DNA of 64,000 bases. Source: Methylocaldum szegediense. Lineage in GTDB: Bacteria > Pseudomonadota > Gammaproteobacteria > Methylococcales > Methylococcaceae. The stretch covers positions 3,415,001 to 3,479,000 of the forward strand of contig NZ_OX458333.1 in assembly GCF_949769195.1 (NCBI RefSeq). Reading direction: 5' to 3'. Position numbers and translations under genes: made by a program. Numbering within the stretch: the first letter of the stretch is position 1; each line of letters opens with the position of its first letter. The notes below the pieces were generated by a model. The model did no database searches, was not told the origin of the DNA, and worked only from the letters and a program-made list of their open reading frames with translations. Of this stretch, positions 39,612 through 42,247 are shown in pieces.

Positions 39612-40670
39612 TTAAGATGGGGACAGTGATTTTTGATTCAAGGCGGCCCCCAACAATTTCGCTGTGACGTCGACTAACGGGATAACCCGTTCATACGCCA
39701 TGCGAGTGGGACCGATGACGCCCAGTACGCCTACCGTTTCTCCATTCATTGAATAAGATGCGGTTACGAGGCTGCACTGGTCCAATGCACGATAACCTGA
39801 TTCCTCGCCGATGAAGATCTTTACACCAGGAGTTTCCAGGCAGCGGTCTAACAGGTGAACTAGGTCTTCCTTCTGATGAAATGCTTCAAATAACGAACGA
39901 AGCCGTTCCATGTTGGCCAAATCGGCAAAATCCATCAGGTTGAACTCGCCGGTCAGAACAAACGGCTTCCGACGTTTTCCTCTCTCTTTGATTGCTAAAT
40001 CGGCAAACTCAGCTGCATCTATAATTTCCTGACTCAGCCGGTTCCGCATTTCCTGCAAGTCATTGAATAGACTCTCGCGAATTGCACTCAAATCCTTGCC
40101 GCCATAAGTGGAATTGAGGAAATTCGCCGCCGCTTGCAGATCGGCAGCAGAGAATTGGCGAGACGTGTGAATGATCTTATTGTGGACTTCTTGCTCATTC
40201 GTTACCAAGATGACCAAAAGGCGTTGTTCGGACAGCGGGATAAATTCAATGTGTTTGAAGGCAACGCTTTCTCGGCGCGGCAGCATTACTAGACCCGCCA
40301 TATGTGTGATTTCCGAAAGCGCGCGAGATGCCGCGTCGATCAAGTCTTGGGGGTCTTCCTGGGTGCTTAGTTCTTGGCGAAGCTGGTGGACGATCTCTTG
40401 CTGCAAAGGCTTAATAGTCAGCAAGGTGTCGACGAAAAAACGGTAGCCGGTCACTGTTGGCATGCGTCCAGCCGATGTGTGCGGCGACGTGACCAACCCG
40501 ATATCTTCAAGGTCCGCCATGATGTTGCGGATGGTTGCCGGGCTTAAATTTAGCCCGGTTTCGCGAGCCAAGGCACGCGAACCGACCGGTTGGCCTTCAC
40601 CGATATAGCGCTCCACCAACACTTTAAGCAAGTGCTGTGCTCGTTCGCTCAATTGGGGATATTTAGGCAC
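39612..40670 (-). CDS. hrcA: Heat-inducible transcription repressor HrcA
   Basis: Repressor that binds CIRCE operators and is kept active by GroE. 352 residues: winged-helix N-terminus (LSERAQHLLKVLVERYIGEGQPVGSRALA...LSPATIRNIMADLEDIGLV) and the HrcA GAF-like core with the C-terminal motif VLGVIGPTRMAYERVIPLVDVTAKLL. A CIRCE element sits 22 bp ahead of the start codon, so the operon is autoregulated. Confidence 0.97.
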   Translation of the reverse strand: MPKYPQLSERAQHLLKVLVERYIGEGQPVGSRALARETGLNLSPATIRNIMADLEDIGLVTSPHTSAGRMPTVTGYRFFVDTLLTIKPLQQEIVHQLRQELSTQEDPQDLIDAASRALSEITHMAGLVMLPRRESVAFKHIEFIPLSEQRLLVILVTNEQEVHNKIIHTSRQFSAADLQAAANFLNSTYGGKDLSAIRESLFNDLQEMRNRLSQEIIDAAEFADLAIKERGKRRKPFVLTGEFNLMDFADLANMERLRSLFEAFHQKEDLVHLLDRCLETPGVKIFIGEESGYRALDQCSLVTASYSMNGETVGVLGVIGPTRMAYERVIPLVDVTAKLLGAALNQKSLSPS

Positions 40671-40691
40671 CGGTATCCTCGAATGGCAGGG

Positions 40692-40718
40692 TTAGCACTC
40701 GAAACCATCGAGTGCTAG
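40692..40718. promoter_or_regulatory. CIRCE operator of the hrcA-grpE-dnaK-dnaJ operon
   Basis: TTAGCACTC - 9 bp - GAGTGCTAG, 17 of 18 arm bases matching the consensus TTAGCACTC-N9-GAGTGCTAA. It lies just downstream of the -10 element, where bound HrcA would block initiation. Confidence 0.95.
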
Positions 40719-40719
40719 A

Positions 40720-40748
40720 AAATTAGCAACCCCTAGATAATGTGTCAA
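40720..40748 (-). promoter_or_regulatory. Sigma-70-type promoter of hrcA operon
   Basis: On the reverse strand TTGACA (40748-40743), 17 bp, TAATTT (40725-40720). The -35 is perfect consensus. No sigma-32 element (CTTGAAA/CCCCAT) is apparent, so heat control is likely through HrcA. Confidence 0.82.
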
Positions 40749-40837
40749 GAAGCTCATACCATATCGCTCAACGCGCGTCTAATCTAAGATGTAGTCGAAC
40801 TTTGTGGGCAGACGCAAGCGGCTCCAAGGAGACATTC

Positions 40838-41302
40838 ATGCAAGGCGACTCGACGGTCCTCAACTATCTCAATCGCGTACTCGGTAACGAGTTGACCGGC
40901 ATCAACCAGTACTTCCTTCACGCGAGAATGCACAAGAACTGGGGATTGGAAAAGCTCGGTCAACGCGTATACGCCGCATCGATCGGCAAGATGAAGCGTG
41001 CCGATAAGTTGATCGAGCGTATATTGTTTCTTGAGGGACTGCCGAATTTGCAGGATTTAGGACATTTGAAAATCGGCGAGAACCCGGAAGAGACGCTTGG
41101 TTGTGACCTTCAATTGGAACTTCAAAGTACGTCTTCGCTGCGGGAAGCCGTCGAGTTCTGCGAAAAAGCCGGAGATTACGTATCCCGAGATCTTCTGGAA
41201 GAGATACTCGAAGACGAGGAAGAGCATGTCCACTGGCTTGAGACTCAAGTGGAATTGATTCAAAAAGTCGGTCTGCAGAATTATCTGCAGTCTCAAATGT
41301 AG
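40838..41302 (+). CDS. bfr: Bacterioferritin, haem-ligand-bearing subunit with incomplete ferroxidase site
   Basis: 154 residues, four-helix-bundle iron storage protein that forms 24-mers in the cytoplasm. The start [28 protein letters not shown] at 40838 has a good AAGGAG site; the ORF extends further but without similarity. The haem ligand M52 is present ([13 protein letters not shown]). Of the usual dinuclear iron ligands, E18, E94, E127 and H130 are kept, but E51 is lysine and H54 is arginine; the inner-surface residues H46, E47 and D50 are also replaced (A, A, G). In organisms with two bacterioferritin types, one subunit carries haem and the other the ferroxidase site, and this looks like the former. 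No second bfr is in the window. Divergent from hrcA. Confidence 0.9.
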
Positions 41303-41362
41303 ATTCCGGTACGGGCTGGCCAGGTTTACAGGTACACCGGAAATTCGCTGCATCGAAAACCT

Positions 41363-42247
41363 ATGTCGTCTATTTTCCGGAACGTGGCCTTGGTCGGAAA
41401 GCCCGACGCACCACGCATTGCCGAAACCCTTTCTGGACTTTACCGGTATCTTGTCGGGAGAGGTCTGTGTGTATGGGTGGAAAGGGGCTGCGCTCATTTT
41501 GTAGCCGATTTTTCACCGGAGACATGCACCGTTTCCGAAGTGGGGCAGCGTTGCGACCTAGCGATTGTTGTAGGGGGTGATGGCACACTGTTATCGGCTG
41601 CGCGTGTGCTGGTGAAGTTCAATATTCCACTGATCGGAATCAATCTTGGGCGACTCGGATTTCTTGTGGATATTTCTCCGTCCGACGCGTGTGCCAAGCT
41701 GGATGAAATTCTTGAGGGCCGCTACAGCGCCGACGAACGCTTCCTGCTTCGGGCGAAGATTTGGCGCGGCGATCGCGTAATTCACGAGCAGACTGCGGTC
41801 AATGAAGTGGTCGTCCATAGCTGGAACGCTGCCAGCATGATTGAAATCGAGACGTCGATTAACGGTGTCTTTCTGAATTCACAACGCTCGGACGGGCTAA
41901 TCGTATCGACTCCTACAGGGTCTACCGCTTACGCGCTCTCGGCTGGAGGGCCGATTCTGCATCCTACACTTAAAGCGATCGTATTGGCGCCAATTAACCC
42001 GCATACCTTAACGAATCGCCCGATTGTTGTGGCTGATGAGAGTGTCGTTGAGATTGCGTTCAGGCCCGGCAAGCAGTTTAAAGTGCAGGTCGTTTGCGAC
42101 AATGTGTCGATTCCCGGTGTGGAACTCGAGGATCGGATTGAGATTCGAAGGGAACCCGAGGCTTTTCGCATCCTTCATCCGCTGGATTACGATTTTTTCG
42201 AGATCCTGAGAGCCAAGCTCAACTGGAGTTCCGGTTATCGAAGCTGA
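41363..42247 (+). CDS. nadK: NAD kinase
   Basis: ATP- or polyphosphate-dependent phosphorylation of NAD to NADP. 294 residues with the catalytic GGDGTLLSAARVLV (residues about 72-85), INLGRLGFLVDI, NEVVVHS, DGLIVSTPTGSTAYALSAGGPILHP and a C-terminal all-beta domain. Forms a likely operon with recN (start 3 bp after the stop). nadK-recN adjacent to the heat-shock operon is a conserved proteobacterial arrangement. Confidence 0.96.
   Translation: MSSIFRNVALVGKPDAPRIAETLSGLYRYLVGRGLCVWVERGCAHFVADFSPETCTVSEVGQRCDLAIVVGGDGTLLSAARVLVKFNIPLIGINLGRLGFLVDISPSDACAKLDEILEGRYSADERFLLRAKIWRGDRVIHEQTAVNEVVVHSWNAASMIEIETSINGVFLNSQRSDGLIVSTPTGSTAYALSAGGPILHPTLKAIVLAPINPHTLTNRPIVVADESVVEIAFRPGKQFKVQVVCDNVSIPGVELEDRIEIRREPEAFRILHPLDYDFFEILRAKLNWSSGYRS

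Follow-up and report, generated by a model that had tools for sequence, protein, structure and literature searches.

What can a bacterioferritin (Bfr) subunit contribute to iron storage if it keeps its haem ligand and has lost part of its ferroxidase centre? The question is raised by a bfr gene in the window, i.e. the whole stretch of 64,000 nucleotides of Methylocaldum szegediense DNA that was analysed, which is part of a 4.87-Mb contig in a genome of 4.9 Mb. The gene, its informative codons and its surroundings are listed in Table 1.

Table 1. Features of the bfr locus, in positions of the window.
Feature	Position	Strand	Basis or remark
hrcA, divergent neighbour	39612..40670	-	Pfam HrcA
CIRCE-like inverted repeat between hrcA and bfr	40692..40718	.	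1 mismatch; 0.02 expected by chance
Ribosome-binding-like AAGGAG	40826..40831	+	6 bases before ATG
bfr paralogue, haem-type, ferroxidase-degenerate	40838..41302	+	154 aa + stop; translation
E18 codon, retained ligand	40889..40891	+	E18 in 4/4 genus genomes
Codons 50-54, GGC AAG ATG AAG CGT (G50 K51 M52 K53 R54)	40985..40999	+	bases read
E94 codon, retained ligand, proposed partner of K51	41117..41119	+	E94 in 4/4 genus genomes
E127 to H130, both ligands present in the window copy	41216..41227	+	residue calls, genus alignment
H132 codon, D132 in nearly all haem-type relatives	41231..41233	+	alignment
nadK, downstream neighbour	41363..42247	+	Pfam NAD_kinase

By profile and by predicted fold, the product is a bacterioferritin. 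It matches the NCBIfam model TIGR00754 (bacterioferritin) over residues 1-154 with 235.3 bits against a cut-off of 125.55, and its AlphaFold2 model, built from 30 aligned sequences, has five helices (mean pLDDT 95.3) arranged in the four-helix bundle and short fifth helix of the Bfr subunit fold. The model aligns 154 residues with a chain of P. aeruginosa BfrB, 66-67% identical in sequence, at Z 27.0 and 0.9 A. In the numbering of E. coli Bfr, the relevant residues, called by script, are E18, A46, A47, G50, K51, M52, R54, E94, E127 and H130. These agree in full with an earlier sequence-only reading of the locus, as do the codons that it gave for positions 50 to 54. E51, a bridging ligand of the di-iron site, is replaced by lysine (E51K) and H54 by arginine (H54R), while the axial haem ligand M52 is retained. 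The six-ligand set of the protein therefore reads E K R E E H, which is not that of a ferroxidase-competent, homo-type Bfr. In P. aeruginosa BfrB, according to the relevant part of PMC12120770, E18, E51, H54, E94, E127 and H130 bind two ferroxidase irons, and an inner site is formed by H46 and D50; compared with this set, the window protein lacks two of the six ligands as well as the inner site. A weak site, or one for a single iron, may still form in the window copy, since it keeps four of the six ligands. The protein also has an intact four-fold pore motif (N148-Y149-L150-Q151) and intact haem-pocket residues where these were checked.

The sequence-only reading had called for a genome search for a second bfr with complete ligands, and had named the lack of any second Bfr, together with full ferroxidase activity of the protein, as evidence against itself. 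The search, for which the window protein served as query at E 1e-15 so that a very distant haem-less subunit could escape it, yielded two further Bfr genes, L002 and L003, each encoding all six ligands (EEHEEH), and, as the fourth of the set, a more remote ferritin-like protein (L004, 33%). L002 is haem-type, with M52, and is 65% identical to the window protein; its gene directly follows rnf-type genes that encode an Rnf-Nqr membrane subunit and an FMN-binding protein (L002:11-1962). L003 is of the haem-less type, 50% identical to the window protein, with R52 in place of the haem ligand, and a gene for a 68-residue Bfd-like protein (bfd) lies directly downstream of it. Among solved chains, L003 is closest to those of mixed-shell partners, with the haem-free SoBfr1 (9iig_A) as one of them. 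The idea of an organism with two Bfr types was therefore right in that partner Bfrs are present and fell short in their number, there being three types here, one of the others a complete haem subunit (L002).

With M52 kept, ligands lost and a haem-less, ligand-complete partner (L003) in the same genome, the window protein shares these features with the haem subunit of a hetero-bacterioferritin. The two genes do not form a tandem pair (TD type), as the window bfr is located at C1:3455838 and its haem-less partner at C1:2058865; with the partner genes at other chromosomal sites, co-expression with the window gene is not implied. Furthermore, because the complete haem-type L002 is found in the same cell, the window subunit is not needed merely for haem supply. 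The trio of complete haem-type, degenerate and haem-less subunits is present in all four genus genomes compared, namely the window genome (G000) and G001, G002 and G003. It is not peculiar to the genus, as G009, from the same family, and G039, from the same order, have it as well. The complete haem-type copy of G002 (L080) deviates at two positions, with Y130 and V47, which may be real changes or errors of the draft genome.

K51, M52 and R54 are identical in the four genus genomes, which rules out a sequencing error or chance and, at the level of sequence, bears out both the degraded ferroxidase centre and the retained haem methionine of the sequence-only reading. Each of the other three genus copies has lost a further ligand, with Q127 in G002 and Q130 in G001 and G003. 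The frame is open in all four genomes, and the six pairs of window-type orthologues have dN/dS values of 0.048-0.120, compared to 0.030-0.102 for the complete haem-type partner L002 and 0.037-0.116 for the haem-less L003, several of the dS values in this comparison being above 1 and near saturation. With dN/dS in the range of its two paralogues, the window bfr is subject to purifying selection of similar strength, and on the same values we rejected a pseudogene. The window-type copy of G001 is identical in sequence to L044 (Methylocaldum sp. 14B). A contig titled as a Methyloversatilis universalis MAG (L043) carries a Methylocaldum-type Bfr with hrcA and nadK; its Bfr is identical to the G002 copy, and the contig is probably mislabelled.

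To what extent is such a subunit linked to the haem-less type? Whole genomes and named loci together supplied 199 Bfr rows, of which 128 are haem-type and 71 haem-less-type, each row being assigned to the closest of three query proteins; haem-type rows without E51 or H54 were called degenerate. M52 is found in all 128 haem-type rows, 41 of which are degenerate (39 distinct sequences). Five named contigs (L043-L046, L048) duplicate whole-genome sequences, and two such duplicates are among the 41. The haem-less-type rows are ligand-complete without exception (71/71), and M52 is absent from 70 of them, the exception being G094 with M at 52.

Eighty whole genomes gave a haem-type row that could be used. 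A degenerate subunit is present in 19 of the 44 with the haem-less type and in none of the 36 without it (Fisher p 1.2e-6). Here, too, the window protein was the query for partners at E 1e-15, so that a very distant haem-less subunit could escape the count. Such counts ignore phylogeny, save in the class sample of one genome per family, where the figures are 10/13 vs. 0/24 (p 8e-7). In the relatives alone, some of whose genomes are incomplete, they are 9/31 vs. 0/11, which is marginal (p 0.045), and 22 of the 31 relatives with the haem-less type have no degenerate subunit. Matches were obtained in 45 of the 61 genomes of relatives, of which 42 enter the count (a haem-type row is lacking in G024 and G035, and G032 was excluded for its interrupted haem-type frame), and in 44 of the 106 genomes of the class sample including G000, of which 38 enter the main count; G066, G089, G108, G134 and G144 were excluded as distant, partial or interrupted. 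G070, whose start was misread to give an artefactual K18, occurs twice among the 128 haem-type rows and is left out of the class table (n=37). Other ferritin-like proteins, matched at about 31% identity, were also left out of the counts.

Under a looser rule, by which the loss of any of the six ligands makes a subunit degenerate, 4 of the 36 genomes without the haem-less type have one (p 0.0014); three of these cases are E127T and one is the misread start in G070. Among haem-type Bfrs, T127 as the sole ligand change is seen in L159, L171, L175, L051, L052, L053 and L056, and S127 in L071; the genomes of L159, L171 and L175 are without a haem-less-type match. Two haem-type Aliidiomarina copies (L057, L066), each beside a haem-less-type gene, keep E51 and H54 and have K18, Q94 and Q127 (KEHQQH). 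Judged by its ligands, this is a second route of ferroxidase loss that the E51/H54 rule does not count.

The association extends to gene order. In 35 named loci, the haem-less type adjoins 20 of the 22 degenerate copies, and the two exceptions are of the window's own type. In whole genomes, dispersed degenerate subunits are found in G000-G003, G009, G011 and G015, all in the window's family, and the other 12 adjoin their haem-less partner.

The degenerate subunits keep N23 and F26 as strictly as M52 (41/41 rows each). The complete haem-type rows have 75 positions with a conservation of at least 90%; the least kept of these in the degenerate rows are 97, 51, 54, 47, 138, 130, 93 and 127. The low values at 51 and 54 follow from the definition of the group, unlike those at 97, 47, 138, 130 and 127. 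Alanine occupies position 97 in 68 of the 74 complete haem-type rows and in none of the 41 degenerate ones, making the position a possible second-shell marker of ferroxidase loss in these alignments. D132 is found in 73/74 complete and 39/41 degenerate rows, and the window copy has H132. Within the collected rows, K51 and R54 occur jointly only in the genus, and K51 alone also in a Colwellia. The residues on which Bfd docks in P. aeruginosa include L68, P69, N70, Q72, G80 and E81, as given in part of PMC12261321. The 41 degenerate rows largely retain them (P69 41, G80 41, Q72 40, L68 39, N70 39, E81 37), and the window protein has all six; in the haem-less type, positions 68, 72 and 81 are mostly occupied by others.

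We compared the Bfr loci of relatives with up to 1.5 kb on each side and found hrcA and/or nadK as neighbours at 18 of them (nadK alone in G015 and G023). Eleven of these copies are ligand-complete haem-type subunits (G004, G006, G007, G014, G018, G022, G023, G027, G030, G033 and G036) and seven are degenerate (the four genus members, G009, G011 and G015). This majority, together with the grouping in trees, suggests that the complete site was probably ancestral at the hrcA-nadK locus and that its loss is derived. In a tree of 123 rows made without the ligand and inner-site columns, in which columns are few and 63 of 120 inner branches are open, one group holds 16 of the 17 distinct locus rows including the genus (SH-aLRT 81, weak); the G007 locus copy falls outside it and second copies are also apart. 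A tree of 42 rows supports the genus clade at 98/98; L002-type copies fall in another group there, and degenerate copies are scattered over several places where long branches meet. Neither holding the seven degenerate locus copies together (p-AU 0.388) nor placing the 17 locus rows in a single clade (p-AU 0.391; the 18th, L038, identical to another, was left out) is rejected. The degenerate G015 and the complete G023 are sisters (support 97/83), which argues for a separate loss in G015.

The window bfr is not a recent duplicate of L002, since the four L002 copies of the genus lie in a separate 12-row group (support 98/96) and since a locus copy coexists with a second full-ligand haem-type copy in G004/G018, G006 and G007 (four genomes, three other genera). 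We also considered heat-shock expression of bfr under CIRCE control. The repeat, which has one mismatch to the CIRCE pattern, lies in the intergenic stretch shared by hrcA and bfr in all four genus genomes and may affect bfr as well as hrcA. Control of bfr by it is unsupported, as no promoter-like site was found in 40600-41420; the complete ligands of the hrcA-adjoining Bfr in ten other genomes were likewise counted against it.

Mixed bacterioferritins with a ferroxidase-poor haem subunit are already known. A close likeness is to SoBfr2 of the Shewanella oneidensis complex SoBfr12 (PDB 9IIG), which, in the parts of PMC12120770 that describe it, also keeps M52 with changed ferroxidase residues (D51, V94 and K46) and leaves most of the oxidation to the haem-free SoBfr1. 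The SoBfr1 and SoBfr2 genes are adjacent, whereas those of Methylocaldum are dispersed, and Methylocaldum differs further in its third, complete haem-type subunit and in the nature of the changes (K51 and R54). Similarly, the haem subunit Bfr2 of Magnetospirillum gryphiswaldense has a ferroxidase centre altered by mutation, and a 24-mer of Bfr1 and Bfr2 was demonstrated by purification and two-hybrid analysis; unlike in Methylocaldum, there are only two types, encoded by a putative bicistronic pair (PMC6529640, in part). For both species the arrangement was established on purified proteins, and these studied subunits behave as the sequence-only reading had supposed for the window protein. In P. 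aeruginosa, haem (BfrB) and haem-less (FtnA) types from separate genes share one shell, but both have working ferroxidase centres, unlike the window protein (PMC8945002, in part). Part of PMC12120770 also describes the dispersed (DSD) gene arrangement of mixed bacterioferritins, to which the Methylocaldum genes may belong, and a shell from three different Bfr subunits obtained by co-expression, so that three-way mixing is physically possible. In addition, the PDB entry 9h1u, a heterooligomeric bacterioferritin, contains three chain sequences (8 + 4 + 12 chains), one of them weakly similar; our literature search found no paper naming it. In view of this entry, no claim of a first three-sequence shell is made here. 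Within the listings, passages and sections covered, we did not meet the charge-swapped site, the partner pattern as counted here or such a subunit combined with an intact haem-type paralogue; the search found nothing on bacterioferritin in Methylocaldum and, judged from the listing, nothing apt on three Bfr subunits.

Taken together, we consider it likely that the window gene encodes a haem-binding, ferroxidase-dead subunit that acts as an electron gate, most probably in a mixed 24-mer with L003 and L002. K51 and R54, in replacing two iron ligands, would put two positive charges at the di-iron site; K51 would most likely pair with E94, and R54 with E18 or E127, the side chains filling the site instead of iron. 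Dimers of the subunit would keep the Met-haem-Met site and the Bfd-docking surface, so that electrons from Bfd could pass through the haem of the window subunit to the core, as a gate for reductive iron release, with iron oxidation left to the haem-less L003 and the complete haem-type L002. For the window protein we thus infer the salt bridge, the absent activity, the haem loading, the co-assembly and the role in release. The K51-E94 salt bridge is proposed by analogy to the mammalian L chain, in which K58, at the position of a ligand glutamate, pairs with helix-C E103 and thereby stabilises the protein (PMC2603009, in part), and because E94 is kept together with K51 in all four genus copies, the pattern expected of an L-chain analogue. 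The mammalian chain is no bacterioferritin and has no such haem site, and the correspondence is one of motif spacing alone.

Other readings fit part of these data. The subunit might form a homomeric 24-mer without ferroxidase sites that stores or buffers haem or a slow mineral and shares no shell, as the intact pore motif and haem-pocket residues and the absence of linkage to the partner genes would allow; we hold this to be unlikely, since the haem-less type is present in each of the 19 genomes (of 80) that carry a degenerate subunit, and since a single subunit was not enough to restore the lag phase in Magnetospirillum (PMC6529640, in part) or iron staining in Shewanella (PMC12120770, in part). 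There is a slim chance that E18, E94, E127 and H130, all present in the window copy, sustain residual oxidation of iron, slow or with another metal, and, by results given in part of PMC12120770, E18 still has a part in iron storage by the comparable SoBfr2. The replacement of both E51 and H54 by cations speaks against it, as does the loss of E127 or H130 in the three other genus members while K51 and R54 are constant. That the gene is a decaying, functionless duplicate is very improbable: the ligands and positions 46, 47, 50 and 132 are indeed eroded, but the open frames, the paralogue-like dN/dS, the unchanged M52 and six Bfd-site residues and the retention of the gene at a conserved locus are not what decay would leave.

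The likeness to the L chain can also be taken further, to a subunit that mainly dilutes ferroxidase sites and stabilises or nucleates the core, its haem being secondary. Methylocaldum is a thermotolerant genus, which would fit a need for stability, and the match of K51-E94 to the stabilising K58-E103 salt bridge by motif spacing (PMC2603009, in part) points the same way. Inner-surface residues that might nucleate mineral are lost in the window protein (A46, A47, G50), and M52 is kept in all 41 degenerate subunits, which makes haem their conserved feature; we therefore regard a mainly structural role as quite improbable. Returning to the haem-binding electron gate, a more specific form of it, which we put forward tentatively and with considerable doubt, is that the shell of Methylocaldum is built of three classes, namely oxidation-only, complete haem and salt-bridge-locked haem-only subunits, in which the share of the third would set the speed at which stored iron is reduced and released. 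If true, the K51-E94 pair of the window Bfr would parallel, in a bacterium, that of the mammalian L chain.

The database name 'bacterioferritin' is silent on ferroxidase activity, as a protein far above the TIGR00754 cut-off illustrates. The pattern seen in 80 genomes, that without the haem-less type there is no loss of E51 or H54, makes a clear prediction that is testable in many genomes and by experiment. Finally, the results suggest that the split between oxidation and electron entry, known from tandem gene pairs, could also arise in dispersed paralogues, by a route in which one of two older, dispersed haem-type paralogues would have lost its iron site with the haem site untouched.
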